Below, piece by piece: positions 30,987 to 60,082 of a stretch of DNA of 64,000 bases (positions are counted from its first letter, which is position 1; each line of letters opens with the position of its first letter). The stretch is from Metabacillus sp. B2-18 (lineage in GTDB: Bacteria > Bacillota > Bacilli > Bacillales > Bacillaceae), in the NCBI RefSeq assembly GCF_021117275.1, contig NZ_CP088245.1:2331501-2395500 (forward strand), read 5' to 3'. A program made the translations under genes and the position numbers. The notes under the pieces were generated by a model. That model was not told the origin of the DNA, searched no databases, and was given only the letters and a program-made list of their open reading frames with translations.

Positions 30987-32044
30987 TATCGAGACAAGAA
31001 TCTGCTCTTGGCTTCGAATAGTGTCTCGATTCAGGAAGTATCGAGACACAAATCTGCACTTGGTCCCGGGTAGTGTCTCGATTAAGGGGGTATCGAGACA
31101 CAAATTAGCTCTTGGTCCGAATGTGTGTCCCGATTAAGGCAGTATTGAGACACAAACTAGCTCAAAGTTCGAATTTGTGTCTCGATTCAGGAAGTATCGA
31201 GACACAAACTAGCTGGAAGTCCGAATATGTGTCGCGATTCAGGAAGTATCGAGACACAAATTAGCTCTTGGTCCGAAAGTGTGTCCCGATTAAGGGAGTA
31301 TCGAGACAAAAATTAGCTCAAAGTTCGAATGTGTGTCCCGATTAAAGGAGTATCGAGACACAAATCTGCACTTGGTCCCGGATAGTGTCTCGATTAAGGG
31401 AGTATCGAGACAAAAATTAGCTGAAAGTCCGAAAGTGTGTCCCGATTAAGGAAGTATCGATACAAAAATTAGCTCTTGGTCCGAAAGTGTGTCCCGATTA
31501 AGGGAGTATCGAGACAAAAATTAGCTCAAAGTTCGAATGTGTGTCCCGATTTATTAAAGGAATATCGAGACACAAATCTGCACTTGGTCCGAATGTGTGT
31601 CCCGATTAAGGGAGTATCGAGACAAAAATTAGCTGAAAGTCCGAATATGTGTCTCGATTAAGGGAGTATCGGGACAAAAATTAGCTGAAAGTCCGAATAT
31701 GTGTCTCGATTAAGGGAGTATCGGGACAAAAATTAGCAGAAAGTCCGAATATGTGTCCCGATTAAGGGAGTATTGAGACAAAAATTAGCTGAAAGTCCGA
31801 ATATATGTCCCGATTAAGGGAGTATCGAGACAAAAATTAGCTGAAAGTCCGAATATGTGTCTCGATTAAGGGAGTATCGGGACAAAAATTAGCTGAAAGT
31901 CCGAATATGTGTCCCGATTAAGGGAGTACCGAGACAAAAATTAGCTCAAAGTTCGAATGTGTGTCCCGATTAAGGGAGTATCGAGACAAAAATTAGCTCA
32001 AAGTTCGAATGTGTGTCCCGATTAAAGCAGTATCCAGACACAAA
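30987..32044. repeat. Array 1: about 21 palindromic units of 52 bp
   Basis: A unit is ATCGAGACA, then about 25 bases (AAAATTAGCTGAAAGTCC and on), then TGTCTCGAT, then TAAGGGAGT, totalling 52 bp. The 9-bp arms are inverted. Starts recur at 52-base steps from 30988 (30988, 31040, 31092) up to about 32033, with one unit 5 bases longer near 31550. Core variants (TTAGCTCTTGGTCC, TCTGCACTTGGTCC, CTAGCTGGAAGTCC) are interleaved, which points to unit shuffling. The edges are degenerate. ORFs inside are chance products of the repeats. Confidence 0.9.
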
Positions 32045-32167
32045 TCTTCTCTTGTTACCAATTCATGTCTCATTTAGTAACCAACGGCAAGCCGTTAATT
32101 CAGTTCAATGATGGTTTCTTCATGCTTTTTCAAGTTAACTCAGAAGCTGCAGCAAGAAATCGATCGT

Positions 32168-32695
32168 TTATCGAAAATCAGCAGAGGTACTTTTCGGAAC
32201 ATCGTTATTAAAGTTACTCAAGCTTTCCCTTAAAGCACTTATTGCAGTTATTACCTCTTTCACATTTTCTTCACTATTCATATTGTTTCTAGCATGAAGA
32301 AGCACAGGTCTTACCGACTCTACAGAACGACCAAACTCATACATCCACTCATAGCGCGGGACCATCCATGTATGAAAATGGTGGGTTGTATCTTCATTAT
32401 AAAAATAATAAATATGTTCTATACCTAAAGTCTCTCTTTGAGCTTTTCTGATCCTGGATAAAATAGTGATATAATCCATTCTTTCATCCTCGGTTAGTTC
32501 ATCTAAGCACTTTATATGTCGCTTAGATGCCAAAATAACTAACCCTTTTATCGGATAGGCAACATCTTGATGTGCATGAAAGAACTCAGTTTCAATCACA
32601 ACACCGCCTTCAGGCTCAATCATTCCACTTGTTAAGGCACAACTTAAACATTCAACTTCTACAATGTTTCCGTTAGACAAAGTTATTTTTCTCAT
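32168..32695 (-). CDS. HIT-like protein
   Basis: A 175-residue protein with histidine-triad-like features. The core DVAYPIKGLVILASKRHI is the usual second strand region of HIT proteins, and THHFHTWMVPRYEW carries two or three histidines in the place of the HxHxH triad, though the last is not in exact register. Two N-terminal cysteines (CLSC) may bind zinc. HIT proteins hydrolyse nucleotide phosphoramidates or dinucleotides. The start at 32695 has GAGGAAG upstream. Confidence 0.75.
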   Translation of the reverse strand: MRKITLSNGNIVEVECLSCALTSGMIEPEGGVVIETEFFHAHQDVAYPIKGLVILASKRHIKCLDELTEDERMDYITILSRIRKAQRETLGIEHIYYFYNEDTTHHFHTWMVPRYEWMYEFGRSVESVRPVLLHARNNMNSEENVKEVITAISALRESLSNFNNDVPKSTSADFR

Positions 32696-32906
32696 TGTGA
32701 TCTTCCTCTTAATTAGATGATTATCTATGTACATGCCACAAGTAAATATACAATAACCATTACATTAAGAAAACATGTTTTCAAAGAATCTATCATTACA
32801 AAGTGATAGACAGTTACACACACACACCTTAAAACTCCTTCCCCCAAAACACAACTAACGCTAACGGATAAAAAGCATGCCATTTCGTAAAATCAAAACA
32901 ATATAA

Positions 32907-32945
32907 TTGAATTAAAAAACTATATCTGGTACGATTTAATCGTAC
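32907..32945 (+). promoter_or_regulatory. Promoter with perfect palindrome for gpx-ohrR
   Basis: TTGAAT (32907-32912) and TACGAT (32930-32935) are 17 bases apart. The -10 lies inside a perfect 17-bp palindrome, GTACGATTTAATCGTAC (32929-32945). Binding there would block polymerase. The OhrR-like gene two genes down is the likely binder; the Bacillus OhrR box TACAATT/AATTGTA has similar form. Confidence 0.8.
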
Positions 32946-32974
32946 ACGATTTATATGTTGAAGGAGGAATCAAT

Positions 32975-33451
32975 ATGAATACAGTATTTGATTTCACAGT
33001 GAAAAAGCCAAATGGTGACACAAAGTCTTTAAGAGAGTATGAAGGAAAAACTTTACTTATTGTGAATACTGCTAGTAAATGCGGATTAACTAATCAATTT
33101 AGTGGGTTACAAGAGCTTTATGAAAAATATAACAGCAAGGGCTTGGAGATTTTAGGATTTCCATGTGGTCAATTTAATGACCAGGAGTATGAAAATATTG
33201 AGGAAACAACTCAGTTTTGTCAGTTAAATTATGGTGTTTCATTTCCGATGTTTGCAAAGATTGATGTAAATGGTGATCAAGCCCACCCCCTTTTTTCATT
33301 TTTAAAAGAACAAAAGAAAGGTGTCCTATCTAAAGAAATCAAATGGAATTTCACAAAATTTCTTGTTGATAAGGATGGAAATGTCGTTAAACGCTATGCA
33401 CCAACAACCGATCCAGCTAAAATAGAAAAGGATATCGCCCACCTACTATAA
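32975..33451 (+). CDS. bsaA: Glutathione-peroxidase-family thiol peroxidase
   Basis: A 158-residue Cys-type Gpx that reduces hydroperoxides, in bacilli usually with thioredoxin as donor. The peroxidatic Cys36 is in TASKCGLT, the partners Gln70 and Trp124 in FNDQE and KWNFTKFL, and the likely resolving Cys82 in QFCQLNYG. The ATG has an AGGAGG site. It is followed after 21 bases by an OhrR-like gene, so peroxide sensing and peroxide removal share one transcript. Confidence 0.93.
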   Translation: MNTVFDFTVKKPNGDTKSLREYEGKTLLIVNTASKCGLTNQFSGLQELYEKYNSKGLEILGFPCGQFNDQEYENIEETTQFCQLNYGVSFPMFAKIDVNGDQAHPLFSFLKEQKKGVLSKEIKWNFTKFLVDKDGNVVKRYAPTTDPAKIEKDIAHLL

Positions 33452-33472
33452 GTTTTATGAAGGATGAGTTAG

Positions 33473-33919
33473 TTGAATGATTTTTTAACCTTAGAAAACC
33501 AGCTTTGTTTTGCTATTTATGAAACAGGTAGTCTGTTTACGAAATTATACTCAAAAGCACTTAAAGAATTTGGAATCACTTATCCTCAATATTTAGTTTT
33601 ATTGGCATTATGGGAGAAAGATGGACTTACGGGAAAAGAGCTGGGAGAGAAGGTAAACCTTGGTACTGGCACTTTAACACCAATGCTAAAAAGACTTGAA
33701 GAAAATGGCTGGGTCAAAAAAGAGCGCTCTTCTATAGATGAAAGAAAAGTTAGTATTTATCTTCAAGCTAAAGCAATAGAAGAAAAAGAAGCCATTTCTG
33801 AAAAAATAACAAATGAAATGGTTTTATGCAATATTGAGTTGGAAGAATATGAGCAATTGATGAAAAACTTAAAGCTTTTACAAACAAAATTATATAAACA
33901 TAACAAAAGCCGGCCTTAG
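33473..33919 (+). CDS. MarR-family regulator, OhrR-like
   Basis: A 148-residue winged-helix protein. The redox-sensing cysteine of OhrR is present at residue 12 in LENQLCFAIYETGS, and the typical ITYPQYLVLLALWE follows, with the recognition helix in LGTGTLTPMLKRLEENG and wing DERKV. OhrR releases DNA when the cysteine is oxidised by organic peroxide. The start is TTG after AAGGATGAG. It probably controls its own operon through the palindrome at 32929. Confidence 0.9.
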   Translation: MNDFLTLENQLCFAIYETGSLFTKLYSKALKEFGITYPQYLVLLALWEKDGLTGKELGEKVNLGTGTLTPMLKRLEENGWVKKERSSIDERKVSIYLQAKAIEEKEAISEKITNEMVLCNIELEEYEQLMKNLKLLQTKLYKHNKSRP

Positions 33920-33932
33920 CTCGGCTTTTGTT
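33902..33932. terminator. Bidirectional terminator
   Basis: AACAAAAGCCG pairs with CGGCTTTTGTT. It overlaps the 3' end of the OhrR-like gene and faces the convergent LysR gene. Confidence 0.88.
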
Positions 33933-33952
33933 ATAAGAATCCCCTCTGAACC

Positions 33953-34825
33953 TCAGGGCTCAAATAGATAATTTTTTATAAACTCATGAAAACTTCTCAC
34001 TTCGTTTGTTTCTACTTTTGTTACTAAATATGTTACTGAAATAGGTGGTGAAATTTTATCAGAAACGATTTCTGAGAGGATGTTCTTTTTTATATCATCT
34101 TTCACCATAGAATATGGTAAATACGAAACTCCTAATGTATTTTCTATGAATTTTTTTGTTACTTCAACTTGATTCACAACCATTGTTTGAATGATTGGAT
34201 AATGTCTTTTCACATCATTCAACAAGGAGTCCCAATAATCTGGGTGATTATGTGTAATGAGTCTGTAATGTGATAATGCATGTTTTTCATGCTTTAAGCT
34301 GTCTTCCCATTCATTTGGACCAACCAAAATAACCGGCTCTTCGTGAATCTTTTCATTTTTAACATTTGTTTGTACTGGATAAATTCTAGTCAATCCTAAG
34401 TCGGCTTTTCCACTACTTATCGCTTCCCCTACATCGTAAGAGTTTACAACATCTACTATGACTTCAATATCAGGATTTGTATGGATAAATTCTTTCAATA
34501 ACCTCGGTAAAAATGATGAGGCAATTTGCGGTGCAGTGGCGATAGTTAACTTTCGATTATAGCCCTGCTTCCATGTTTCAAAACGGTTCATTCCTTCTTC
34601 ATAATTGGCTAAAAAATCCTTCGCATAAGGAAGAAATTTATGACCGGCAGAAGTTAGGTAAACTGCTTTTCCCCTTCTTTCAAACAGTTCTATATTTAAA
34701 TGCTCTTCAAGTCGTTTTATATGCTTGGTGATTGCTGGTTGAGTTAGGAATAGTTCTTCTGATGCTTGTCTAAAATTTTCAAGCTTCGCACAGACAATAA
34801 ATGTTTTTAACCATTTTATATCCAT
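33953..34825 (-). CDS. LysR-family transcriptional regulator
   Basis: A 290-residue LysR protein. The N-terminal winged helix-turn-helix is DIKWLKTFIVCAKLENFRQA, then FLTQPAITKHIKRLEEHL. A periplasmic-binding-like sensor domain follows (from about residue 90). It begins at the ATG at 34825 after AAGGGTGATC. It is divergent from a methyltransferase gene, with 139 bases between, so that gene is the likely target. The effector is unknown. Confidence 0.88.
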   Translation of the reverse strand: MDIKWLKTFIVCAKLENFRQASEELFLTQPAITKHIKRLEEHLNIELFERRGKAVYLTSAGHKFLPYAKDFLANYEEGMNRFETWKQGYNRKLTIATAPQIASSFLPRLLKEFIHTNPDIEVIVDVVNSYDVGEAISSGKADLGLTRIYPVQTNVKNEKIHEEPVILVGPNEWEDSLKHEKHALSHYRLITHNHPDYWDSLLNDVKRHYPIIQTMVVNQVEVTKKFIENTLGVSYLPYSMVKDDIKKNILSEIVSDKISPPISVTYLVTKVETNEVRSFHEFIKNYLFEP

Positions 34826-34964
34826 CGTGATCACCCTTATAACGAACTGTTATTAAAATTTTCCATTTTTGTTAATTTTAATTATACCCTTTATCCACTA
34901 TAATTCAATTACAACTCATAGTTTTCTAGATTAAAAGGTTGTTATGAAAAAGGAGGATTTTATC

Positions 34965-35732
34965 ATGAAGCAAGTTGTAAAGGATATGTGGGATGCGAGG
35001 TTATATGATGGAAACCATTCTTTTGTATCAGACTTTGGCCAAGATTTAATAAACATGTTATCACCCAAAAAAGGAGAAAGGATACTTGATGTAGGATGCG
35101 GAACAGGTGATTTAGCAAATCATTTAGTTCAATATGAGGTAGATGTGACTGGGATTGATAAGTCTGAAAATATGATCAACCAAGCATGTCTTAAATACCC
35201 ACATATACGATTTTTCTCCAAAGATGTATTGGAATTGGATGATAACGAAACATTTGATGCTGTTTTTTCTAACGCAACTCTGCACTGGATAAAAGAACCA
35301 GAGCAAGCACTTTACTGTATATTTAATAGCTTAAAGTCCGGAGGTAGATTTGTTGCAGAGTTTGGAGGACAAGGGAATGTACAGGTAATTACGAATGAAA
35401 TGATCAATCAATTTCAACTTGCAAATATTGAATATAAGGAGAAATTCCCCTGGTATTTTCCGAGTATAGGTGAATACACTTCGTTAATGGAAAGAGTTGG
35501 GTTTCGTGTAGCATTTGCATGTCATTTTGATCGACCAACTCCTTTAGATGGAGAAAGCGGCTTAAAGAACTGGATTACGATGTTTGCTGGGGATATGTTT
35601 ATTGATGTTGAGGAAAGTGAAAAGAATCAAATAATGAATCTTGTAGAAAATAATGTAAGAGAACTTCTCTTTCAAGATGGTCGTTGGGTGGCAGATTATA
35701 AAAGAATTCGCGTCGTAGGGATCAAGGAATAA
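34965..35732 (+). CDS. Class I SAM-dependent methyltransferase (Tam-like)
   Basis: A 255-residue methyltransferase. Motif I is RILDVGCGTGDLANHL, followed by VTGIDKSENMI and FDAVFSNATLHWIKEP. The last stretch (SNATLHW) resembles trans-aconitate methyltransferase. The ATG at 34965 has an AAAGGAGG site; an upstream ATG at 34944 is less likely. Its divergent neighbour is a LysR regulator. Confidence 0.88.
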   Translation: MKQVVKDMWDARLYDGNHSFVSDFGQDLINMLSPKKGERILDVGCGTGDLANHLVQYEVDVTGIDKSENMINQACLKYPHIRFFSKDVLELDDNETFDAVFSNATLHWIKEPEQALYCIFNSLKSGGRFVAEFGGQGNVQVITNEMINQFQLANIEYKEKFPWYFPSIGEYTSLMERVGFRVAFACHFDRPTPLDGESGLKNWITMFAGDMFIDVEESEKNQIMNLVENNVRELLFQDGRWVADYKRIRVVGIKE

Positions 35733-35768
35733 GAAAAAGAAGAGTACTTGGTTCTCTTCTTTTCTTAT
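35731..35768. terminator. Bidirectional terminator
   Basis: AAGAAAAAGAAGAG pairs with CTCTTCTTTTCTT between the convergent methyltransferase and modA genes. Confidence 0.8.
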
Positions 35769-35772
35769 AGAT

Positions 35773-36552
35773 TTATAGATTTGAAAAACCATATTTCTCT
35801 AGAATTGCTAAAGCATTTTCAGATTTCATATAGGTAAAGAAGACCTTTGCTTCTTCTACATTTTTACTTTCATTAATAACTCCTATTGGATAAATAATTG
35901 GTGTGTGTGTCCCCGCTTCTGCTGTTGCAATAACATTGACTTTGGAGGAAATAAGAGCATCTGTATTATAGACGATACCTGCATCGACATTTCCCGTTTC
36001 TACATAAGTTAACACTTGTCTTACATCTTTAGAGTACACAATTTTATTCTCAACACTGTCCCATTCCCCTATTGCTTCAAGCATTTCCTTTGCGTACTTT
36101 CCTGCCGGGACCGTTTCTGGGATGCCTATTGAAATTTTGTCCGCTTTTTCTTTTAAATTACTAAAGGACTCAATTCCTTTTTGGCTGTCTTTAGGGGTTA
36201 CTAAAACAATTTTATTCCCAACTAAATCAACCGCATTACCTTCATCAATGAACCCTTTTTTTATCAATTCATCAAACTTATCCTCTGCTGCTGAGAAAAA
36301 TATGTCTGCTGGTGCACCTTGCAAAATCTGTTGTTGTAAAGTTCCTGAGCTTCCGAAATTAAACGTGACTTTGATGTTTTGATGCTCGTTTTCAAACTGA
36401 GTTTTTATTTCATTCAGTGCATCTGTTAAACTAGCAGCAGCGGAAACGGTGATCTCTACAACTTCCTGTGAATTTCCTTCCGTTTCCTGTCCTGATGAGC
36501 TACAGCCAGCTAAGCAGAATAGAAAAACAAATAATATAAATAGCTTTTTCAA
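35773..36552 (-). CDS. modA: Molybdate-binding lipoprotein ModA, orphan
   Basis: A 259-residue substrate-binding lipoprotein of the molybdate ABC importer. The signal peptide ends in a lipobox (FCLAGCSSS). The mature domain has VSAAASLTDALNEI, FNFGSSGTLQQQILQGAPAD and DAGIVYNTDA, standard for ModA. The TTG at 36552 follows AGGAGAGA; upstream ATG codons are less well placed. No modB or modC is next to it, so the permease must be elsewhere or the system is partial. Confidence 0.92.
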   Translation of the reverse strand: MKKLFILFVFLFCLAGCSSSGQETEGNSQEVVEITVSAAASLTDALNEIKTQFENEHQNIKVTFNFGSSGTLQQQILQGAPADIFFSAAEDKFDELIKKGFIDEGNAVDLVGNKIVLVTPKDSQKGIESFSNLKEKADKISIGIPETVPAGKYAKEMLEAIGEWDSVENKIVYSKDVRQVLTYVETGNVDAGIVYNTDALISSKVNVIATAEAGTHTPIIYPIGVINESKNVEEAKVFFTYMKSENALAILEKYGFSNL

Positions 36553-36660
36553 GTTTACTCTCTCCTTGGTATCTTTCATCATACAGTCTATTTTAACTAA
36601 TTGTATTGATTAAGTAATGAAAAACGACAAAATTTATATAAAATTTTCAATCTATTGTGA

Positions 36661-37335
36661 TTATAAAAACGATGAGTTTTTTGACATCTTCAAAAATATG
36701 TTTGTAAGTAGTTTAGAGAAAAGAAAAATAATGCAATAAAATATGAAAAGGTAAAAATAATTCGCCCACTTATGAAGAAGAAAAAAATTGTGCATGACTA
36801 AAGTCGGCTTTAATATAAACGATAAAAATAGTGATAAAACAATAGAATATAAATAGAAGTTTTTATTATGATTTAATGTCCATTGGTAAACTAGAATAAA
36901 CAGAACCGGAATTAATGCTGTATCTAAAGACAAATTTCCAGGTATATATGGTGTTAGTTCATATGGATATCCCCATAATCCTTGTTTGTTTCCCCACGTA
37001 TCTATTAGTCCGAACCATGTGTTGATATTAAAGCCATAAAATCCTAAGAGAAATATTTTTTTTCGATCAATAGTGAAATATAACACTAATAATGGAGTCA
37101 AAAACATTAGGACGAATATAAACCAAAATTGCCAAGATTGAAAGTTTGAGTATTGGTGCCAATATTCAACCCTTAAATCTGTAACATCTTTCATCATTGA
37201 ATTAATTTTTTCATAAGTTTCCATTTGTTGTTGTTCCATATTAATTTTCAATAGTAACACTCCACTCATCGTCATTAATTCTATTTTTTGTAAAGAATAG
37301 GAAATAAATTCAAGAGTGGAAAAAAAACTTTTCAT
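36661..37335 (-). CDS. CBO0543-like multi-pass membrane protein
   Basis: Up to 224 residues. The N-terminal 30 or so look untypical, and the real start may be the ATG at 37239 (MEQQQMETYEKI). From there come WHQYSNFQSWQFWFIF and five or so transmembrane segments, with conserved-looking TWGNKQGLWGYPYELTP. This pattern occurs in a family of Bacillus and Clostridium membrane proteins of unknown role. Confidence 0.7.
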   Translation of the reverse strand: MKSFFSTLEFISYSLQKIELMTMSGVLLLKINMEQQQMETYEKINSMMKDVTDLRVEYWHQYSNFQSWQFWFIFVLMFLTPLLVLYFTIDRKKIFLLGFYGFNINTWFGLIDTWGNKQGLWGYPYELTPYIPGNLSLDTALIPVLFILVYQWTLNHNKNFYLYSIVLSLFLSFILKPTLVMHNFFLLHKWANYFYLFIFYCIIFLFSKLLTNIFLKMSKNSSFL

Positions 37336-37385
37336 GACTACTTTTTTTATATCACTCCCTACCTACGGTAATAAAGAGCAATATC

Positions 37386-38603
37386 TTATTCCTTAAAGAA
37401 AACAGGTGCAGAATCAACATTTTTTAACCATATATTTTCTTCTCCATCTACCCCTTTTTTAATCCAAACATCGCCACGAGAGTCCTCGGTTGATTTTTTA
37501 CGAACCCAAGTGATATAGGTAGAAACCGTTTGAGGGTCAATATCAATCTCATTACTTTTAGGATTAGTTATTTGAATTTGCTCGCTTGATTTTAGAGAAA
37601 TAAGATAAAGGGCTGTATACATTGTAGGAACTGGTCCTTCTTCCCACTCTTTATTTTCTTTGGCACGAGCGACAATCATTCTTTCAGGAGAGTACCATTC
37701 TAAATCGAGATCGACATAACCTTTAGGTGTATATTCTCTTTGCTTTGTCGTGGTAGGCATTTCTTTTATCTTGAGATTTTTGTTTTCAACAAAAAATCTT
37801 CCTTCTCCAGAAATATAAGCTAACTGTTCAGATGATGGTGCCCACTTTACCCAATCTGAATACCCTAGCATTTTCCCAACATGTTGGAATTGTTCTCCTT
37901 GCTCGGAAAGTACACATAAAGTGTTACTGTCCATAGACCATGATGCAGTTGGAACTCCTATGAAGCTAACCCATTTTCCGTTATAACTCCACTTAAAATA
38001 ATCAGCATAAATGGCAAATAAATCAGGGATTGTTGTATTAATTGTATAAAATGATTTTATTTTATTTGAGTTCAGATTTGCATCTATAGGCATTCTAAAA
38101 AGCTGTACAGGTCCCCATCCTGTAGGAAGTAAGTTGGCCTGTGAGGAAACGATAAATTCTTTTCCATTTGGAAACCAGTCAAAACCGTTAACTCCTACTG
38201 CAACATTTTCAAAGCCTTGCGGACGACCCTCCTTCATTTTCGTTACATTTAACACGCCACCTGATGTATAGGCTAATTGATTTTTAATCGGTGACCATTT
38301 AAAATCAGATGTTTCGACAACTATGTAAGGCTTGTAATTTTCTTTCTTTTTTATATCATAGATGAACAAATTTGATGACTCACCCAGCTTATTGCTCTTG
38401 GTATATGCTATAAACTGTCCATCATATGACCATTGTGGCGAACTTACGCAGCCGCTATTTGTAAGTTGGATTTCTTGGCTACCATTCTTAATCCACAGTT
38501 GATGGTCCCTAACAAATGCTGCTTTTAGTGGGGCTTCAGCACTTGCAATGCTTGAAAAAAGAATACAGTGTAAAATAAGAAAAAATAAAATACGAAAACC
38601 CAT
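37386..38603 (-). CDS. Secreted TolB-like beta-propeller protein
   Basis: A 405-residue protein with a cleavable signal peptide (MGFRILFFLILHCILFSSIA, cut after ASA). The rest consists of repeating WD40/TolB-like blades: SPQWSYDGQFIAYT, DFKWSPIKNQLAYT, GFDWFPNGKEFIVS, WVKWAPSSEQLAYI. It has a strong AAGGAGGGAG ribosome site. Such proteins act as extracellular scaffolds or as TolB-type domains; no catalytic residues can be assigned. Confidence 0.82.
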   Translation of the reverse strand: MGFRILFFLILHCILFSSIASAEAPLKAAFVRDHQLWIKNGSQEIQLTNSGCVSSPQWSYDGQFIAYTKSNKLGESSNLFIYDIKKKENYKPYIVVETSDFKWSPIKNQLAYTSGGVLNVTKMKEGRPQGFENVAVGVNGFDWFPNGKEFIVSSQANLLPTGWGPVQLFRMPIDANLNSNKIKSFYTINTTIPDLFAIYADYFKWSYNGKWVSFIGVPTASWSMDSNTLCVLSEQGEQFQHVGKMLGYSDWVKWAPSSEQLAYISGEGRFFVENKNLKIKEMPTTTKQREYTPKGYVDLDLEWYSPERMIVARAKENKEWEEGPVPTMYTALYLISLKSSEQIQITNPKSNEIDIDPQTVSTYITWVRKKSTEDSRGDVWIKKGVDGEENIWLKNVDSAPVFFKE

Positions 38604-38657
38604 GATGACTCCCTCCTTTTTAATAGGTTGTCCTAATCAAGTTTGAGAATTCGCATA

Positions 38658-38688
38658 ATAAAAAACAGTAAGGAACCATTCCTTACTG
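38658..38688 (-). terminator. Terminator of the ECF sigma operon
   Basis: On the minus strand CAGTAAGGA pairs with TCCTTACTG, followed by six T residues. Confidence 0.85.
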
Positions 38689-38705
38689 CCTATTTGATCA
38701 TAGTT

Positions 38706-38942
38706 TTAAATAAAGAAAATAGGTGTTATGAACACAATCAATAGCAAAATAAACGGATACATTACAAGTCGTGTGATCGAATTTCCTTTAATATTAAGTA
38801 GATCTATCGGGCTTTTTACAGGTGCATAAATCCAGTTTGCTATGCGGTCTACCTTACTTTTTGTAAGCGGGATATCCGGTACGTCAACTTGAAATTCCTC
38901 CAAATGGTTTTGAAGCTCCTTTGGAATCTCGTTTCTACTCAT
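38706..38942 (-). CDS. Small membrane protein, probable anti-sigma factor
   Basis: A 78-residue protein with a soluble N-terminal part (EIPKELQNHLEEFQVDVPDI) and a single C-terminal membrane segment (YPFILLLIVFITPIFFI). It overlaps the upstream sigma gene by four bases. This position and shape fit a short membrane-bound regulator of the sigma factor, like YxlC of the sigY operon. No zinc motif is seen. Confidence 0.7.
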   Translation of the reverse strand: MSRNEIPKELQNHLEEFQVDVPDIPLTKSKVDRIANWIYAPVKSPIDLLNIKGNSITRLVMYPFILLLIVFITPIFFI

Positions 38943-39463
38943 TCTTTTACCTCCAATAAAACCTTTAATTTTTTCAATGAAGCATGAAGTCTTGATTTCA
39001 CAGTACCTATTGGAATCTCAAGAATATTAGCAATTTCCTTCTGTGTTTGATCATGATAGTAAGTTAAAAGGATAACGGCACGTTGGTCATCGGGGAGCTG
39101 TTGTATGGCTGATTGAATTGTTAGTTTATCTTCTACAGATAATTCTTGTTGTTCGTTTTGTTGATATAAAAAAGGCAAAAGCTTTTTAAAGCGACTCCGA
39201 CGTTTCAAACGATTAATCATAATCTGATAAGCCATACGAAATAAAAAGGTTTTTAAACTAGATTTACTTTCATCAAAATTTCCCTGATACTTATGAAACC
39301 TTATAAACGTATCTTGCACAATATCAACGCTAAGTTGTTCATCTTGACAATATCGATAAACAAATTGATAGATTGAAGCTTTGTAGCTAACAAATATTTC
39401 TTCGATCGAATGTTTATCTCGCTTACCGTCATCATCAATTAAGAATTCTTTATTTAAACTCAT
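38939..39463 (-). CDS. ECF-type RNA polymerase sigma factor
   Basis: A 174-residue sigma-70 family protein with region 2 (YRYCQDEQLSVDIVQDTFIRFHKY) and region 4 (QLPDDQRAVILLTYYHDQTQKEIA, IPIGTVKSRLHASLKKLK). The linker is short, as in ECF sigmas. Its start overlaps the upstream membrane-protein gene by 14 bases. The three genes form one operon. From the layout it resembles SigY or YlaC systems that answer envelope stress; target genes are unknown. Confidence 0.9.
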   Translation of the reverse strand: MSLNKEFLIDDDGKRDKHSIEEIFVSYKASIYQFVYRYCQDEQLSVDIVQDTFIRFHKYQGNFDESKSSLKTFLFRMAYQIMINRLKRRSRFKKLLPFLYQQNEQQELSVEDKLTIQSAIQQLPDDQRAVILLTYYHDQTQKEIANILEIPIGTVKSRLHASLKKLKVLLEVKE

Positions 39464-51540: not shown

Positions 51541-51558
51541 TCGATACTTTTCCATTTT

Positions 51559-51597: not shown

Positions 51598-51628
51598 ATT
51601 TCCGCAAAACGCCAAACGAGCAAAGCTA

Positions 51629-52363
51629 TCATCTTCCTTCTACTATTTGAGCAAAATCGTCAATAGTAGTTGAATACTTTACATAAATTCGCGGTAAAAG
51701 ATAAAGTTCATTTTTAATCCCTTTATTAGAAAAGTATTCAGGAGTTGTTGTGAGTCCAAAAGAATAATATTTCTTCGTTTCATCTACAACTTTGTTATTT
51801 GCATTGCCATAGGGATAGGCAAGTGCAATAACTGGTTCTCCTGTTATGTTATAAATTTTATCTTTTGAATCTTTGAGTTCATGTTCAAATTTGGTTATCT
51901 TCGTTAAATCAGGATGTGTTGCCGTATGAGATTGGATGGAAATGATACCAGAGTCAGACAACATCTTTAAATCTGCAGATGATAAACGGTTAGATCGTCC
52001 GATAAAGTCACTTATCACAAAAATAGTCGCTGTTGGCTTAAAGCGTTCATTCTCTAGCTTTTTAAAGATAGCAAATGCATGTAAATTATTTTTGTATCCA
52101 TCGTCAAAAGTTATAAAAATCGGCTTCTCTACTTTATCAAGATCTTGCCATCGTTCAAAAGTCAGTAAGGTAAACCCATTGTCTCGTAGATACCTCATTT
52201 GGTTTTCAAAATTTTCAGGTGTAACGTACAACTCCTTGTCACCAAGTCCTTTAAATTCGTCAATGGAATGATAAATTAAAATCGGAACTTGTTGTTGAGC
52301 TGAAATATGTATTGGAAATACTAATGTAACAAAGCACAATAACATTGTTATGATTGGTTTCAT
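51629..52363 (-). CDS. Secreted polysaccharide deacetylase
   Basis: A 244-residue NodB-type deacetylase with a signal peptide (MLLCFVTLVFPIHISAQ). Catalytic motif 1 is ITFDDGYKNN (the DD pair), motif 2 is SHTATHPDL (the zinc histidines), and YPYGNANN is motif 3. It removes acetyl groups from a wall or capsule polysaccharide. The single gene has a good upstream purine-rich site. Membrane release depends on cleavage after SAQ-like residues. Confidence 0.9.
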   Translation of the reverse strand: MKPIITMLLCFVTLVFPIHISAQQQVPILIYHSIDEFKGLGDKELYVTPENFENQMRYLRDNGFTLLTFERWQDLDKVEKPIFITFDDGYKNNLHAFAIFKKLENERFKPTATIFVISDFIGRSNRLSSADLKMLSDSGIISIQSHTATHPDLTKITKFEHELKDSKDKIYNITGEPVIALAYPYGNANNKVVDETKKYYSFGLTTTPEYFSNKGIKNELYLLPRIYVKYSTTIDDFAQIVEGR

Positions 52364-52421
52364 ATTTTTCCTCGCTTTTCATTCTTTTACCTTTATTGTT
52401 CCGAATAATACAAAGTTAATG

Positions 52422-52457
52422 AAAAAACACCTCTTCATTAAGTTTAATGAGGAGGTG
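52422..52457 (-). terminator. Terminator of the 95-aa membrane protein gene
   Basis: CACCTC and TCATT pair with AATGA and GAGGTG; on the minus strand six T residues follow. Confidence 0.82.
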
Positions 52458-52474
52458 CACAATACTTATGTGAG

Positions 52475-52762
52475 TTAAAAATAAAGATACAGCATTTTCT
52501 TTTGTCGATTTTCCATGCTAGCTTTTAAGATAATAGCAACAATGACTAATAAAATGAAAAGTACGGCAATCAGAATAAATTCTGAACAACGCTCATTTCT
52601 TTTATTTAGATAAAGAACTGGTTTCGGGAGTTCGGAAGTAGGTCGTTTGTGAACATTTAATGTTCGAAGAGAAATGAACCCAATGATAATAAGCAAAACA
52701 AATAAAATGATAACAAGAACCCATCCAATATCTTTAGAAACTTGAGGATATTGATCAAGCAT
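52475..52762 (-). CDS. Small two-segment membrane protein (95 aa)
   Basis: Two transmembrane segments (WVLVIILFVLLIIIGFISL and FILIAVLFILLVIVAIIL) flank a 30-residue basic loop. AAAGGGGGAAG lies upstream of the ATG. Family not recognised. It has its own terminator. Confidence 0.7.
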   Translation of the reverse strand: MLDQYPQVSKDIGWVLVIILFVLLIIIGFISLRTLNVHKRPTSELPKPVLYLNKRNERCSEFILIAVLFILLVIVAIILKASMENRQKKMLYLYF

Positions 52763-52890
52763 TTTTTCTTCCCCCTTTTATGTAAAGGGCCCTCTAATCA
52801 GCATCGTATGACGAAAATGTCAGATTGTTTACTGTATCATATGATTGAAACGTTTATTATGTATGGACTTTAGAGCTTGTTTGAAATATT

Positions 52891-52919
52891 AAAACAGAAA
52901 GACTCCTTTATAGGAGCCT
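52891..52919 (-). terminator. Terminator of the second yjcZ-like gene
   Basis: On the minus strand AGGCTCCT pairs with AGGAGTCT, followed by TTTCTGTTTT. Confidence 0.75.
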
Positions 52920-52948
52920 CCTGTATAAAACCGATTGTTTTTATAGTC

Positions 52949-53098
52949 TTAGTACCAAGGATTTCCGTACCCATAACCACCGTATCCTCCATGTCCATAA
53001 CCACCAGTTGTATAACTTGCTCCAACAATGATTAGAAGGATAAACAACACAACAATAAGTGCAAAGCCTGCACCATAACCGCCTACTGCTTCACTCAT
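52949..53098 (-). CDS. YjcZ-family small sporulation-type protein, second copy
   Basis: A 49-residue protein: [20 protein letters not shown], then GASYTT and a glycine/tyrosine tail ([18 protein letters not shown]). The hydrophobic core is the same as in the gene at 40060, with a longer tail. The site GGAGGTG precedes the ATG. The family occurs in many copies in spore formers. Confidence 0.88.
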
Positions 53099-53382
53099 TT
53101 TCCTTCACCTCCCAAATTTCTCAATTCTCATAGTATGTTGCACTAGTAAATTCGTTTGGGCTTTTGCATTAATTTTTTGAATGAACTAATAAAACTGGGC
53201 CTATTTCTAAGTGCTAATTCCGCCTAAGTGCTACAGTATAGCCCACTCTTTGATTTTCTTGAAATACATTAGAGTTAAGAAAATGTAAGCAGTGAATAAA
53301 CATGAATTTTCCGTTTGAATGAAACTTACAGAAATAAATAGCATTTTTATATCATTTTTTGGTAATTCATCTTAAATTAATA

Positions 53383-53412
53383 TTGGTTTAATCTCATTTT
53401 GAGATATATAAT
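53383..53412 (+). promoter_or_regulatory. Promoter with palindrome in the spacer, copy 1
   Basis: TTGGTT (53383-53388) and TATAAT (53407-53412) are 18 bases apart. The spacer holds the perfect palindrome ATCTCATTTTGAGAT (53391-53405). A repressor or an MerR-type protein bound there would sit between -35 and -10. The same arrangement is found at 59539. Confidence 0.75.
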
Positions 53413-53471
53413 AAAACCAAGAAGTTCAAGAAAGGTTTACATGCGTAACTTCTAAATAAGGAGGATTTCAA

Positions 53472-53618
53472 ATGAGCCAACAAGTTAGAGATTTCAAAGT
53501 GAATGATTTACTAAAAAAACACAAATTTAACGAAAAAGAAATTGCTGAAATGGATGATTCACAAATTGAATATTTTCACTGGCTCTATTTCGAAGATTCT
53601 GTATACGATTATATGTAA
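53472..53618 (+). CDS. 48-aa acidic protein, cassette copy 1 (BH0509-like)
   Basis: The product reads MSQQVRDFKVNDLLKKHKFN, then EKEIAEMDDSQIEYFHWLYF, ending DSVYDYM. It is helical and acidic at the C-terminus, resembling the small BH0509-type proteins of bacilli, whose role is unknown. AAGGAGG precedes the ATG. A second copy at 59631 differs at one residue (V to A). A strong terminator and then a 52-bp array follow. Confidence 0.8.
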   Translation: MSQQVRDFKVNDLLKKHKFNEKEIAEMDDSQIEYFHWLYFEDSVYDYM

Positions 53619-53640
53619 TTATTAATATAAAAAATATATA

Positions 53641-53672
53641 AGCTATTGTGCTAAGAGCACAATAGCTTTTTT
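53641..53672 (+). terminator. Terminator of cassette copy 1
   Basis: AGCTATTGTGCT pairs perfectly with AGCACAATAGCT around a 3-base loop, followed by T residues. Confidence 0.9.
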
Positions 53673-53708
53673 AGTGTTAAATGAATAGTTTTGGTTTTCA
53701 TTAAATTT

Positions 53709-54066
53709 ATGAACGACAGTTAGCGTCAGATCATAACTAGTTTTGTTGTTCATCCACCTCATGAACGACAGAACGTATTCCGTTCCGGCCAGTTTTGTCG
53801 TTCATCCACCTAATGAACGACAGAACGCATTCCATTCCAGTCACATTTGTCGTTCATTCACCTTATGAACGACAGAACGCATTCCGTTCCGGCCACTTTT
53901 GTTGTTCATCCACCTAATGAACGACAGAACGCATTCCGTTCCGGCCAGTTTTGTCGTTCATTCACCTTATGAACGACAGAACGCATACAATTCCAGTCAC
54001 TTTTGTCGTTCATTCACCTTATGAACGACAGAACGCATACAATTCCAATCACTTTTGTCGTTCATC
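53709..54066. repeat. Array 2: seven palindromic units of 52 bp
   Basis: A unit is ATGAACGACA, then 25 bases (GAACGCATTCCGTTCCGGCC and on), TGTCGTTCAT, then 7 bases (CCACCTA or TCACCTT). Units start at 53709, 53761, 53813, 53865, 53917, 53969 and 54021, an exact 52-base step. Arms are 10-bp inverted repeats. Cores vary (CGTTCCGGCCAGTT, CATTCCAGTCACAT, CAATTCCAGTCACTT). It lies between the terminator of a small gene and the 3' end of the pectinase gene. Confidence 0.92.
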
Positions 54067-54117
54067 AACCTCATGGGGACAAGAAACCTGTCCCCACGGC
54101 CCTTTCCCCACGGCCTT

Positions 54118-57100
54118 TTATTTCATTAGTTCTTGTGTGAATTGAATGAGATAGGTAGCTTGTTCTGTTGTTAGTTCTTTGTCTGTTTTAGCTTTAACAT
54201 GGTTGATGAAAGCATTTAATTGTCCGTTTCTGGCTTTTGTATTATTTTTTTCAGCTGACTTTTTAGCAGCTTCTAATTTTTTAAGATATGGTTGGAAATT
54301 AGCTTCCTTTCCATTTTCTATGAGAAATTGTTGTGTTAAGTTTGCTAAGCTATCATACTCTACTTTTATTAAAATTGAAATGGAGCTATTTGTTTTGTTG
54401 CCGGCTAGGTCGATTGCTTCAGCAGTAAACTCATGATTTCCTACTCCAAGCTGGTAGGCTGGCTGTGTGTTCTCCTTACAAGTAGAAGAATCTATGCCAG
54501 ATAGAGCGTCAACAGCTTCGCAAGTAACATTTATTTCTTCATCGATACCAAATTCTATTCCATCTTCAAGGTTAAAGGTAATGACCGGTGAAGTTGTGTC
54601 TAGATTTATGGCTACTTCTTTCTTATCTTCAACATTACCAGCTTCATCCTCACTCCAATAGTGAATAATATGCTTACCGTCTTCTTGAATTGTAACAGTA
54701 TTTCCTGATTGTTCAGAGCCATTATTTACTTTAAAATACGTATTCTCTACCTCAGACTCATTGTCAACTGCTGTAAAGTTAATTTTTACAGCTTCTTTGT
54801 ACCAATTGTTCTGAGCTGCTCCAGTTATTTCATGAGTTGTTTCAGGTGCATTTTCATCATTTTTCCCACCAGACACTAAATAAATATTAGGTGATGGTGG
54901 TTCTTCCATTCCTTCACCAATATAAAAACTAGGGTGTGGAGGTTGGTTGTAGCCAACATTTTGCCATGCGATGGATTGTCGATATTGAGCATCATGCATG
55001 AGAGTAAAAATTTTATGATCGGTTACAGCTGTTGTTGTGTAAAGGCGTAACGCACTGCTGTCTTCTGTTCTCCAAATCGCTTCTTCTCTCCAGTCACCTA
55101 AAAGATCAGCCTGTAAAGAAGGAGTACCCTTTGTTGAGTTATTGGAGTAAGTACCTTCAGCAAGTAATAGATTCTCAAGTTTTTTGTCTTCGTGATTCCA
55201 TTTTGCGATTGTACCTGTTCCTACTCCTTTATTAGCATCCCATTTATGATCGAGCAATTCTCGTAAAAGATCTCCATCCCACCAAATACCGAAGTTTGAA
55301 GATGGAATATTTTCAGAGATTTTCTCACCAGTAGCTGAATACAAACCACCAGTTGTACTATTCCATTCACCTGAAATAGCCCATGCCTCAGCACCATCAT
55401 AAGTAGGATCAATATCAGCCGTCATACCACGGCCAGTATCTTCACCAGTTTTAACGCCCCAGATGAATTCACCTGTTTCAGCATCACGAAGATCATAGCC
55501 ATATTTTGCATCGGTATGCTCTTGTACGGAGAAAATTTCAAGTCCTGGACGATTAGGATCTAAATCACTAACATGAAGGGCGTCACCATGACCTAATCCA
55601 GAGTTATAAAGACCAGAGCCATCATCATCGATCGTCATTTGACCATAGACAATTTCATCTTTTCCATCATGGTCAACATCAGCGACGCTTAAGCTATGAT
55701 AGCCTTGACCCGCCCAGCTACTATAGCCTTCATTATTCGTATCAAATGTCCATTCTTTTGTTAGCTTCCCATCTCTAAAGTTATAAGCTGTCACAACGGT
55801 TCTAGTGTAATAGCCTCTGGCCATAATAAGACTAGGTTTCTCACCGTCTAGATACGCAACTCCAGCAAGGAAACGATCGACACGGTTACCATATGAATCA
55901 CCCCAAGATGAGACATCACCACGTTGTGGGTCATAGTCAGTTGTGACAAGTTCCTTACCAGTTTCACCCTCAAATACTGTGAGATATTCTGAGCCTTGAA
56001 GGATATAACCTGATGAATTTCGATGATCCGCATCTTTCTTACCAATGACGTTTCCTTGTCCATCCACTGTTCCATCGGCCGTTTTAAAAGCAATCTCTGC
56101 TTTGCCATTTCCATCAAAATCGTAAACGATGAACTGAGTGTAATGGGCTCCTGCGCGAATATTTTTACCAAGATCAATTCTCCACAGTTTTGTTCCATCC
56201 AGCTTGTATGCATCGATATACACATTTCCAGTGTAACCAGCTTGTGAATTGTCTTTTGCATTTGATGGATTCCATTTTACAATGATTTCATACTCGCCAT
56301 CACCATCTAGATCTCCAACACTTGCATCATTCGCTGAATACGTGTAAGGATCTCCTAATGGTGTGACACCATCCTTTGGCTTATCAAGTGGAATGTCTAA
56401 GAAGTTATTGCTTAAAACATTTGCGCGATCTTTTGTTTTCTTTTCTTTCCTATCTAAAACAGCGCGTACCTCGTAAACGTCATCTACGGTTCCTTCTTTG
56501 TCAACAAAGTTTGTGCTGTCTGAAAGAGGTGAAGTGTTAATTTTCTCATCGTTGCGATATAAGTTGAATGACACATCCTTAGGATCAGTTCCTAATAATC
56601 TCCAACCGAGATAAACGCCTTCATCGGTTTTAACAGCTACGAGACTGCGATCAATTGATTCCATTTGTCTATTTAGTACTGTTACTGCCGGTGTTTCAAG
56701 GCTATCAGATTGTTCAGAGATTCCACCAGCATTTACCGCAGCAACTTTGTAGTAGTATTTAATAGTGGTTAGAACCGTTTTATCTGTATATTTCGTATCA
56801 CTTGTTTTACCAACTAATTGATACGTTCCATCTTTCTTTTTAGATCGATAAACATTATATGTTTTAGCTCCTTCCGTTTTATCCCAGCTAAAGGTTAGAT
56901 CATTTTTATTAACATCTCCAAGCTTAAGGTTTACGGGTGCATTTGGAACAGAAACAGATGGATCAATCATCGATACAGCTAATGGCATAGAAGGAACAGT
57001 TTCGATATTCGCACTGTCAATTGTAGTAACTGTGTACTCATATTCCATACCAACATCGATACTAGTATCTTTGTAAGAATTCGTTGCTGATGTACCAATA

Positions 57101-59202
57101 AGCTCTACCTTATTAGTTCCTGCAACTTTTCGGTAAATATTATATTTTGATGCACCGTCTACTGCTTTCCATGATAAATTAACAGACGGATTTTCAGGAT
57201 CAATCGTCACTTCCTCAGCCTTCAGTTCTGATGGTGCGAGTAAAATCGGCGTAAGCTCAAGACCATTTGCAATTCCAGTAGATCCTTTGAAATTCACATT
57301 CATTTGACCATCTGTTACAGAAACATCAGAAAACACCTTTGACGTATAATTTCGACTTGAAGCATTTACAGGACCTAAGTCTTTACCCTCTATCGATACG
57401 TCTGTTCTAGCACTTCCAAGGAAATCTGCAACATGAACCTTCACAGCATATAGTCCATTTGGTACATCCACTTTGAATTCCCAACCAACGTTAAAATATC
57501 CTAGCCAATCACGTGTTACGTCTCGAAGTGGTGTATCTCCATCTCCACGGTCACGTGTGATCATGCCTGTATTATCTTTAATTCCATACCCTCTTTCTTC
57601 GGTATATACAGTATTAAGATCAACATTCGTAAAACCCTCGGCAACAGGACTGCCAACCGGCCCGAAGTCAAACTTAAGAGTTGCTTCTTTTGTTTTTATT
57701 TCAACAACATCTGAACGATCGGACTCTCCTTTTCCATTTACAGCAACCACATGCAGATGATAGGTATTTCCTTCATCCATACCTGATAAGCTGATTCTAG
57801 GAATAGTTGAGGTACCAGCTAAAACATAATTTTCTTCAGTTGAAAGTTTACGATAAATTTTATAAATATCCGTATTCTCAACTACATCCCATGTTAACAC
57901 TGCCCCGGCATTACTGATGCTGCTTGCCGTTACACCAGTAGGCTTGTTTGGAACATTTGCTGGAGGCTCAACGTCTGTTACATACGAAGCTAGTGGACTA
58001 CTTAACTCTTTTATTCCAGACGATAAAAGGCGTGCAATTTGAATTGCTCCATATTCCTGGAAGTGCGTATCATCTTGTGAACCATTTGGAAACGCTTGAT
58101 AAATCCCTGGCTCTGTATGAAGGAATATAGAAAGAGTCCCAATAGGACCAATTGAGTTATAATATTCACGGCTAAGTGTACTTAAATCAACCAACTCAAC
58201 ATCAAGTTCAGCTGCCACTTCTTTCATACCTTCTACATATTCTGGAAAACTTACATTAAAAATGCCTGTTTCTGAATTAAAATCACGTCGACCAACAGGT
58301 GTAACTAAAATTGGAGTGGCACCACGTTGTCTTGCTCCATTAATATAGGTTTTTAAATAATTTTTATAATCTGGAACTGATGCATAACGCTCAGGTCTGC
58401 TGATGGTAGCATCGTTATGTCCAAATTGAATAAGAAAATAATCATCAGGACGGATTTCTGTCAAAATATGATCTAATCTTCCTTCGAAAATAAACGACTT
58501 AGAACTTCTTCCACCTATAGCATGATTGTCAAAAAGAATGTCATCATTAAAGTATCGTGGAATCATCTGTCCCCAACCTGCTTCAGGCTTCCAATATTCA
58601 TCATATGTTTGCACAGTAGAGTCACCTGCAATATAGACAGTTGGCTTCTCACCTGCATCACGTTTAGCTAGTTCTGTAATAATAAGTCCGTTAATTTTTG
58701 GATTACTGCCAGTAAGCTCAACATTCAATTGTCCGTCTACTAATGCAATAGAAAAACTACGATCAATGAATTCTCCTGCGGCAACAGCTGTATCCTGAAT
58801 CTTTTGAATGGTTTCAGCTTTCACACCTATATTTGTAGCTTCCTTCGAATCTCCCGCAATAACTGATACAGAATAATCACCATTTGGCAAATCTACATTA
58901 AAACTTGTTTCCTTTGTTGAAATAAAATCAGACTGCAATGCGTCAGTTGCTCCATTGTCTCCTGAAACGACCTTTGATGGATCTTGAAAACCATATCCAA
59001 CGTCTTCGCTATAAGCAGATTCCTCTGAGACTTTGCTATATCCTTCTTTTACTGCACTTGATGATGTTCAAAAATCAAATTTTTTCGTTAATACATTTTC
59101 CTCTGCCTTTGCAGCTTGAAAACTAATAGGAAAATTAGATAGCACTAGCATGGCACTTAATAATATTGCAGCATGCTTCCTACCTTTTCTCATACCTTTC
59201 AT
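54118..59202 (-). pseudogene. Secreted rhamnogalacturonan acetylesterase-lyase fusion, nonsense codon near start
   Basis: A frame of 1695 codons starting at an ATG (59202) with a signal peptide (AILLSAMLVLSNFPISFQAA). A TGA at 59068-59070, in KFDF-stop-TSSSAV where this domain family has glycine, interrupts it. The downstream part is open for 1606 residues. In that numbering a CBM-like domain is followed by a CE12 SGNH esterase (GDST 105-108, GGRS 142, GHND 173, DDTH 289), an FnIII, a second CBM-like domain (418-565), two FnIII, a YesW-like PL11 rhamnogalacturonan lyase (about 755-1340, NDASVGDLDGDGEYEIIVKW), two Ig-like domains and an FIVAR-like C-terminus. It should cut and deacetylate pectin backbone outside the cell, if made. 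Confidence 0.9.
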
Positions 59203-59538
59203 AAGTTCACTACCTTTCGTTATTGAAAATAGTCACCTTATGCCTTGTCGAGTTGAATGTATCCCTCCCTTCACCATTTTTGAAAACCCTTACAAAAGTA
59301 CATAATAGATGTTGTCAGAATATTTAGATATATAAAATTCAGACATTCTCGTTTAAAAAACAGATATGATTTATAAGTAGTTCTTTTTGACTATCCAAAT
59401 TTCTCTGGGTTATAAATCCTTTTTCTTAGTAACTTTGCAAATGTCATGACAAATGGATTAGTAAATCAGTACACTTATAGGAATTTTGTTTACATCCCTT
59501 TTTTATATCATTTTCTGATAAATCATCTTAAATTAATA
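59203..59538. other. Intergenic region upstream of the pectinase gene
   Basis: GAAAGGT and GTGAA before the ATG at 59202 serve as ribosome site. No gene is seen. The last part, from about 59490, is the start of the duplicated cassette leader. A promoter for the pectinase gene could not be placed with confidence. Confidence 0.5.
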
Positions 59539-59568
59539 TTGGTTTAATCTCATTTTGAGATATATAAT
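59539..59568 (+). promoter_or_regulatory. Promoter with palindrome in the spacer, copy 2
   Basis: TTGGTT (59539-59544) and TATAAT (59563-59568), again 18 bases apart, with ATCTCATTTTGAGAT at 59547-59561. The whole stretch from about 59510 to the ATG is nearly identical to that before 53472. Confidence 0.75.
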
Positions 59569-59630
59569 AAAACCAAGAAGTTCAAGAAAGGTTTACAAAG
59601 CATAACTTCTTTATATTAGGAGGATGTAAA

Positions 59631-59777
59631 ATGAGCCAACAAGCTAGAGACTTTAAAGTGAATGATTTATTAAAAAAACATAAATTTAACGAAAAAGAAA
59701 TCGCTGAAATGGATGATTCACAAATCGAATATTTTCACTGGCTCTATTTCGAAGATTCTGTTTATGATTATATGTAA
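59631..59777 (+). CDS. 48-aa acidic protein, cassette copy 2 (BH0509-like)
   Basis: Nearly identical to the product at 53472, with MSQQARDFKV in place of MSQQVRDFKV and otherwise only silent changes (AAACACAAA against AAACATAAA, GTATAC against GTTTAT). Silent differences with a conserved protein suggest selection on the product. The ribosome site AGGAGG is kept. A terminator and a 52-bp array follow, as in copy 1. Confidence 0.8.
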   Translation: MSQQARDFKVNDLLKKHKFNEKEIAEMDDSQIEYFHWLYFEDSVYDYM

Positions 59778-59799
59778 GTGTTAAGATAAGAAATATAAA

Positions 59800-59835
59800 A
59801 GCTATTGTGCACATGTTGGCACGATAGCTTTTTTA
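59800..59835 (+). terminator. Terminator of cassette copy 2
   Basis: AGCTATTGTGC pairs with GCACGATAGCT (one G-T pair), followed by six T residues. The loop differs from copy 1. Confidence 0.88.
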
Positions 59836-59874
59836 ATAGTTAAATATTAATAAGTTTTTTCCTTCATAGTGGCT

Positions 59875-60082
59875 ATGAAGACCATTAGTGGTGGTTTTGG
59901 TAGGAGTTTTGGTCTTCATCGGGGTTATGAAGACCATTGCCGGTGGCTTGGATGAAAGAGTTATTCTTCATCGCAATTATGAAGACCATTAGTAGCTGTA
60001 CCGCTAAAAGTATTAGTTATCATTTAGTTCATGATCAACAGTACGGGCTCTTTCCTTCCCACTTTTGTCGTTCATGAACCGA
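59875..60082. repeat. Array 3: four in-phase palindromic units of 52 bp
   Basis: Units start at 59875, 59927, 59979 and 60031, exactly 52 bases apart. The first has ATGAAGACCA, 25 bases, TGGTCTTCAT and 7 bases. The second and third keep the left arm with degraded right arms (TTCTTCAT, TTATCAT). The fourth, still in phase, is of array-2 type: ATGATCAACA, 25 bases, TGTCGTTCAT. Two unit families thus share one phase. Confidence 0.88.

Follow-up and report, generated by a model that had tools for sequence, protein, structure and literature searches.

Three intergenic arrays of short palindromes, which share a step of 52 bp and differ in their arms, lie within the stretch of Metabacillus sp. B2-18 DNA analyzed here (64,000 nucleotides, positions 2,331,501 to 2,395,500 of contig NZ_CP088245.1, assembly GCF_021117275.1; termed the window). 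Such arrays occur genome-wide, keep their 52-bp register through a change of arm family and--a point that goes beyond the preliminary description of the window, made from its letters alone--house an insertion sequence (IS) of the IS256 family, in Metabacillus sp. B2-18 as well as in another 23 genomes, of which one is borderline. The interpretation favored here, to which an even chance is given, is that the arrays are helically phased docking strips for a putative DNA-binding protein and that the IS uses them as landing pads.

In outline, paired inverted half-sites recurring every 52 bp, that is, about every five turns of the helix, would place the bound copies of this protein, which may bind the half-sites as a dimer, on one face of the DNA. 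The IS would recognize the bound or phased array, guided either by the protein or by the DNA itself, and the array might offer it a harmless, safe place to land. The arrays themselves probably grow in whole-unit blocks, by slippage or unequal recombination, as is suggested by the higher-order periods of 104 and 156 bp seen in the window arrays. What speaks for this interpretation is the exactness of the step, the conservation of the arms between species, the persistence of the register where the arms change, and the location of the IS, in most cases at the dyad or roughly one or two helical turns away.

The 52-bp step within the window and across the genome

The three arrays, none of which is assigned a strand, are as follows:

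Array 1: 30986..32054; about 21 type-A units (GTCYCGAT / ATCGRGAC) of 52 bp each, one of which has a 4-bp insertion near 31551
Array 2: 53693..54075; seven type-B units (GTCGTTCAT / ATGAACGAC), the left arm of the first unit being C-like
Array 3: 59858..60082; three type-C units (GGTCTTCAT / ATGAAGACC), then a degenerate unit, then a terminal GTCGTTCAT half-site

Written as arm, loop length and arm, the plans are GTCYCGAT-9-ATCGRGAC for type A, GTCGTTCAT-7-ATGAACGAC for type B and GGTCTTCAT-7-ATGAAGACC for type C. Tandem Repeats Finder assigns a period of 52 to array 1 (at 30986-32054, 20.5 copies), to array 2 (at 53741-54075, 6.4 copies) and to array 3 (at 59862-59993, 2.5 copies with a 74% match), and the distances between dyads agree with it. 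Array 1 contains 19 type-A dyads with a loop of 9, and 17 of its 18 steps are 52.0 bp, the remaining step being 108, or 2 × 52 + 4; all six steps between the seven type-B dyads of array 2 (loop 7) and both steps between the three type-C dyads of array 3 are likewise 52.0. By eye, a fourth unit of array 3 can be recognized from a degenerate, B-like right arm, ATGATCAAC, at 60031, exactly 52 past the third. Hence the shared period reported in the preliminary description is borne out, and its unit counts of about 21, seven and four are fair, given the dyads plus this degenerate unit. Within the three arrays, units match one another at 74-89% with the cores counted too.

The own genome (termed G000) contains many more arrays of this sort. 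Searches of it yield 53 matches with array 1 as query and 18 with array 2, figures that count overlapping pieces as well as the query. For the strict type-A palindrome there are 218 occurrences, as compared with a single one for a reversed control, so that strict type-A units total about 11 kb (218 × 52), or 0.2% of the 5.14-Mb contig. At the own-genome loci examined, 199 of 234 steps between neighboring dyads of the same type are 52.0 bp; 24 others are 51, 51.5 or 52.5 bp, and 11 have some other length. The palindromic plan described earlier also recurs: the strongest palindromes have arms of 8-10 bp separated by a short gap of 6-9 and a long gap of about 24-27. (Arrays were listed by geometry, requiring a period of 45-58, at least 2.4 copies and a 70% match, with one row per array center.)

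The preliminary description had proposed to judge the shared length by the range of unit lengths found genome-wide, and this was surveyed in 40 evenly spaced 20-kb stretches (800 kb). Arrays of 52 bp occur there at four loci, which make up six array stretches since an IS splits two of the loci; these counts include two 52-bp stretches (L206) that were script-marked as coding because open frames run through them. A unit of about 20.6 bp with a 103-bp super-period occurs at two loci. The remaining arrays called non-coding are a 30-bp AT-rich array, a 24-bp array only 63 bp long, and a further two, L040 and L220 (45 and 63 bp), which on inspection by eye resemble portions of small genes. Thus 52-bp arrays are a genome-wide feature, their shared length exceeds what chance would give, and a broad spread of unit lengths is absent from the surveyed 800 kb. 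The 20.6-bp arrays constitute a second non-coding class, in which GACGTGA-like motifs recur every two helical turns (L029, 16297-16603; L042, 3140-4026); 21-bp arrays with other sequences are found in two congeners, G014 and G015.

Arm families and the register that they share

The same three arm families are found in other species. Among 21 genomes of the genus, the exact type-B palindrome occurs 23 times in G000, 11 times in G006, 135 times in G015 and once in G002, and the exact type-C palindrome 64 times in G000, 68 in G006, 43 in G015, 23 in G018, 14 in G013 and twice in G001. Type A, sought among 100 genomes, is found 218 times in G000, 338 times in G006, 353 times in G015 and once in each of two others; one of these single matches, in a genome of another family (G084), falls in an array of period 51. 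Among the matches listed, exact type-B or type-C palindromes also stand alone, without listed neighbors, in G006, G001, G002 and G000 (e.g., G000:C1:377673 and G006:C1:1507967), and such solitary palindromes may be array seeds or relics.

The 52-bp register persists through a change of arm family. In the G015 orthologue of array 2, whose flanks are 82-88% identical to those in the window, four C-like dyads (with 2-4 mismatches to type C) are followed by type-B dyads; the dyads at 1292, 1344, 1396, 1448, 1500, 1552, 1604, 1656, 1708 and 1760 are all separated by steps of 52.0, including the step at which the family changes, and a final type-B dyad follows after a step of 51.5. Similarly, at an own-genome locus (L002) type B gives way to type C at a step of 52.0, and array 3 closes, still in register, with a B-like half-site. 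The earlier suggestion that geometry is what is kept is upheld by these cases.

In orthologous type-A arrays of G000, G006 and G015, consensus units are identical at 92 of 96 arm positions, at 33 of 54 loop positions and at 96 of 162 spacer positions; that is, the half-sites are conserved and the spacers, which differ at 41% of positions, are free. (Units were cut by register alone, the arm pattern merely rotating the finished consensus; these figures combine six comparisons, three of them among one set of three arrays.) The arms are also polar and, judging from their sequences, share a loose GTC...AT motif: of 28 nominal arm families drawn from the own genome and others, 18 contain GTC, as against a mean of 4.5 and a maximum of 13 in shuffled families, and none contains GAC, as against a shuffled mean of 2.9. 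(The 68 arrays behind these families all have an arm score of 6 or more and a gap no longer than 11; some families come from a single genome, near-duplicates among them, and are not independent.) The view that the arrays are largely unrelated in sequence therefore holds only in part: arms do differ from array to array, but all three window families are shared with other species, and the recurrence of GTC does not bear out fully unrelated arms.

If the arms acted by pairing with each other, then changes in one arm should be compensated in the other, as the preliminary description expected. At the single variable arm pair examined, in 157 type-A units whose arms are exact and whose loop has 9 bases, no such compensation is seen: the true pairs TA (26 observed, 33.4 expected) and CG (27, 33.7) are slightly below independence, and the combinations TG (81, 73.6) and CA (22, 15.3) are above it, with one other unit. 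Because the variable arm bases are uncoupled, hairpin pairing is unsupported and cruciform spacing, one of the roles first suggested, becomes a weaker candidate; protein half-sites fit better.

An IS256-family element within the arrays

The IS is about 1.47 kb long and encodes a transposase that matches PF00872 at 427.5 bits and the IS256 model NF033543 at 392.5 bits (cut-off 150); its 25-bp ends and its target duplications, mostly of 8 bp, supply the inverted repeats and the 8-9-bp duplication characteristic of that family. Its 13 long matches in the own genome comprise ten copies at 96-100% identity and three at 69%, and all but one, a shorter copy (L061), lie within 52-bp arrays. The transposase has 83 relatives in the public genomes scanned, of which 80 loci were retained. 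To these were added the own copies and seven copies from congeners, which gives 100 insertions, 98 of which could be scored for flank periodicity between 15 and 74 bp (one lacked a flank and another its left end). About half of the sample (50 of 98, from 24 genomes including the own one) sits in arrays of 51-53 bp, the array at L081 being borderline, just above its shuffles. A further 12 insertions sit in arrays of 20-21 bp or multiples thereof (weakly so at L080), one has a weak match at 24 bp, and one lies in a 68-bp CRISPR-like array. In that last case (L107, 2904-4291, from Bacillus niameyensis) the 8-bp duplication falls inside the palindromic repeat.

These associations extend over arrays of differing sequence. 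Within Neobacillus mesonae, and again within Gracilibacillus timonensis, one IS (represented by pieces that are 97-100% identical) resides in arrays with different arms. The period is largely a property of the genome: it is 51 at all six Gracilibacillus timonensis loci, 53 in Rossellomorea vietnamensis and Bacillus sp. P14.5, and mostly 52 or 51 in the others. On a transposase tree (60 of 69 rows usable, 41 labeled) the class of target is clustered, with 4 changes as compared with 8.9 in shuffles and none of 500 shuffles as low; since near-copies help this result, it is not used as proof.

Insertion occurs mostly in helical phase. Thirty sites have a target duplication, a period of 50-54 and a dyad score of at least 0.58. 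The center of the duplication is within 1.5 bp of the long dyad at 18 of these (all 11 in the own genome and 7 of 19 elsewhere), and at nine more it is displaced by 10-10.5 or 19.5-21.5 bp. When only the 19 sites from other genomes are considered, 1 of 20,000 uniform draws reached their phase score at 10.4 bp. Thus the insertion point is fixed in the own genome, as at REP-type (repetitive extragenic palindrome) IS targets, and varies elsewhere, and the argument from five helical turns with which the arrays were first described gains support from the target sites, most of which are centered on the dyad or lie some 10 or 20 bp to either side. The left terminal repeat of the IS contains GTCCRTAT, i.e., GTC-N3-AT, in the same polarity as the arms at the insertion dyad; to the transposase, the long dyad may resemble an end-to-end junction of the IS.

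The arrays can exist without the IS. In G006 and G015 there is no match to Transposase_mut (PF00872) at E <= 0.001, despite their 338 and 353 type-A units, and among the matches listed G006 has an uninterrupted array of 21.5 units at a site where G000 has IS copies. A domesticated Mutator-type transposase, considered as a candidate for the array protein, is rejected on the absence of that same match from both genomes.

Weighing the alternatives

Several observations weigh against the arrays being docking strips that serve as landing pads. No array was detected at 34 of the 98 insertions, some of which abut a run of N or the end of a contig; at both IS copies in G002 and at the own copy L061, however, the flanks are complete and contain no array. 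Three of the 30 target sites are off the helical pattern (6.5, 17 and 25.5 bp), and 13 more sites in 50-54-bp flanks were excluded, their dyads being too weak to place. Arms are weak in several IS-bearing arrays (e.g., L105, L114, L121). Ureibacillus acetophenoni (L089) carries both 52-bp and 51-bp arrays, so that length is not strictly fixed per genome. In most of the nine arrays that were folded, the arms within a single array are barely more uniform than its cores, in part because indels blur the register. Purines are enriched on the leading strand of the cores in 21 of the 24 array groups of G000, with the strand swapping between replichores. (Array 2 is one of the three exceptions; a sign change of the GC skew between 2.25 and 2.5 Mb places the window near the terminus.) Such purine richness may be mutational or may be a sign of another function. 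Finally, one array contains both type B and type C, and hence the 52 bp that the arrays share could descend from a single ancestral array.

This last point is bound up with a duplicated block that adjoins two of the window arrays:

Duplicated block, copy 1: 53344..53682, plus strand; adjoins array 2 on its left and contains a 48-aa open reading frame (ORF) at 53472-53618 with a terminator-like hairpin
Duplicated block, copy 2: 59500..59845, plus strand; adjoins array 3 on its left and contains a 48-aa ORF at 59631-59777 with a terminator-like hairpin

The two copies, of about 340 bp, are 89.6% identical, and because the block is duplicated, arrays 2 and 3 look like paralogues. A 21-bp match between these arrays spans the type-B half-site that closes both, and the calculated distances from the first dyad to this shared end differ by 156 bases, or 3 × 52. 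The near-identical ORFs, each followed by its hairpin and array, flank a 1606-aa rhamnogalacturonan lyase gene on both sides; the first of the two ORF copies (53472-53618) was scanned against Pfam and has no match.

The main rival is one of descent: a single ancient 52-bp tandem repeat spread and diverged, and homogenization within arrays holds the length without any protein that measures it. The presence of types B and C in one array, the apparent paralogy of arrays 2 and 3, the loose GTC motif running through many arm families, the block copying revealed by higher-order periods, and arms scarcely more uniform than cores inside an array are all as this history would have them. It leaves unexplained, however, why the arm consensus is nearly fixed at orthologous arrays whose spacers differ by 41%, why insertion of the IS is mostly in helical phase, and why there is a second class at 20-21 bp; descent alone is therefore regarded as unlikely, though a serious contender. 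Palindromes might instead copy themselves, hairpins in single-stranded DNA at the replication fork driving slippage by one unit, such that units with good arms outgrow others and the arrays are selfish. Palindromic arms with loops of 6-9 nt, cores and copy numbers that turn over from one species to another, and a core orientation that follows replication in 21 of 24 groups would suit such a process, but the variable arm pair shows no compensating changes and several arrays have poor palindromes, which renders it improbable.

Those same uncoupled bases--the Y and R positions of the arms vary independently--tell against a function in RNA or as cruciforms, by which arrays at the 3' ends of genes would be transcribed as strings of hairpins or would extrude from the duplex. 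Arrays may tend to avoid divergent promoter regions: 9 of 23 array flanks are convergent, 12 co-directional and 2 divergent, compared with 20, 94 and 36 of 150 other gaps longer than 150 bp, in counts that consider only ORFs of at least 80 aa and are too few to be firm. Yet there is no Rfam match at the arrays at gathering thresholds, and no T-run follows the hairpins of array 1 in the sequence, so that such a function appears decidedly improbable. Least credible, and largely refuted, is the proposal that the IS256-family transposase itself builds or maintains the arrays. The breadth of its association with 51-53-bp arrays, over 24 genomes, and the GTC-N3-AT that its left end shares, in polarity too, with the arms at the insertion dyad would be in keeping with this; the unit-rich genomes without a Transposase_mut match, and the uninterrupted G006 array where G000 has IS copies, are not.

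Known systems resemble the arrays in some respects. CRISPR arrays likewise consist of palindromic repeats at regular spacing, and one IS relative does lie in a CRISPR-like array (L107); CRISPR is nevertheless ruled out for the window arrays, in agreement with the preliminary description, inasmuch as the cores are near-copies within an array rather than unique spacers and no cas domain occurs among seven neighboring proteins. At plasmid origins, iterons repeat directly about every 20-22 bp along a single helical face and in this respect are like the 20-21-bp arrays found here, whereas the 52-bp arrays are inverted pairs scattered over the chromosome. The intergenic mosaic elements of Neisseria (dRS3/RS) are likewise intergenic arrays in which short inverted repeats alternate with variable longer units; dRS3 is one sequence, the RS units vary in length, and no fixed helical spacing is known for them.

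Closest in their relationship to insertion sequences are the REP and BIME (bacterial interspersed mosaic element) palindromes of enterobacteria and pseudomonads, which are extragenic and serve as IS targets. According to Tobes and Pareja (2006, PMC1525189), short extragenic palindromes are exact targets of insertion sequences, including a member of the IS256 family. REPs are defined by sequence (PMC3733652), namely by a GTAG or CGTC tag. Here, by contrast, sequence varies between and within genomes and the 52-bp step is kept: arms differ between arrays, unlike a constant REP palindrome, and neither GTAG nor CGTC is present in the consensus unit of array 1. In Geobacter metallireducens, multicopy paired sites, putatively those of a regulator, are accompanied by ISGme8/ISGme9 at a fixed distance (PMC2700814); these resemble the present arrays in being repeated sites with associated insertion sequences, but they are paired at variable distance rather than arranged in tandem arrays of fixed period. 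In the open-access library searched, no account was listed of bacterial tandem palindromes with a 52-bp step, nor of tandem arrays as targets of IS256 elements. IS targeting of extragenic palindromes is already established, an IS256-family case included; what is new here is an IS256-family element in arrays of this kind.

Two regulatory elements elsewhere in the window may be mentioned. Three tandem T-box leaders with a 257-bp period lie at 24033-24768 on the minus strand, upstream of a 674-aa ORF; thrZ of Bacillus subtilis likewise has three T-boxes in tandem. A c-di-GMP-I riboswitch lies at 61845-61924, also on the minus strand, just upstream of the gene for a GGDEF protein (60203-61729).

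Returning to the interpretation of the arrays as docking strips, a broader generalization may be ventured, which is held tentatively, as possible rather than probable: that the Bacillaceae possess a class of arrays defined not by sequence but by helical spacing--of five turns, or of two--whose periodicity is read by a family of transposons and within which half-site families come and go, sometimes inside a single array, as the spacing persists. If this is true, then chromosomal arrays in which the spacing is the conserved trait would point to a phased nucleoprotein structure of a new kind. The IS copies that lie within such arrays in 24 genomes would then provide a ready readout of that structure, and may represent the choice of a target by its architecture rather than by its sequence.

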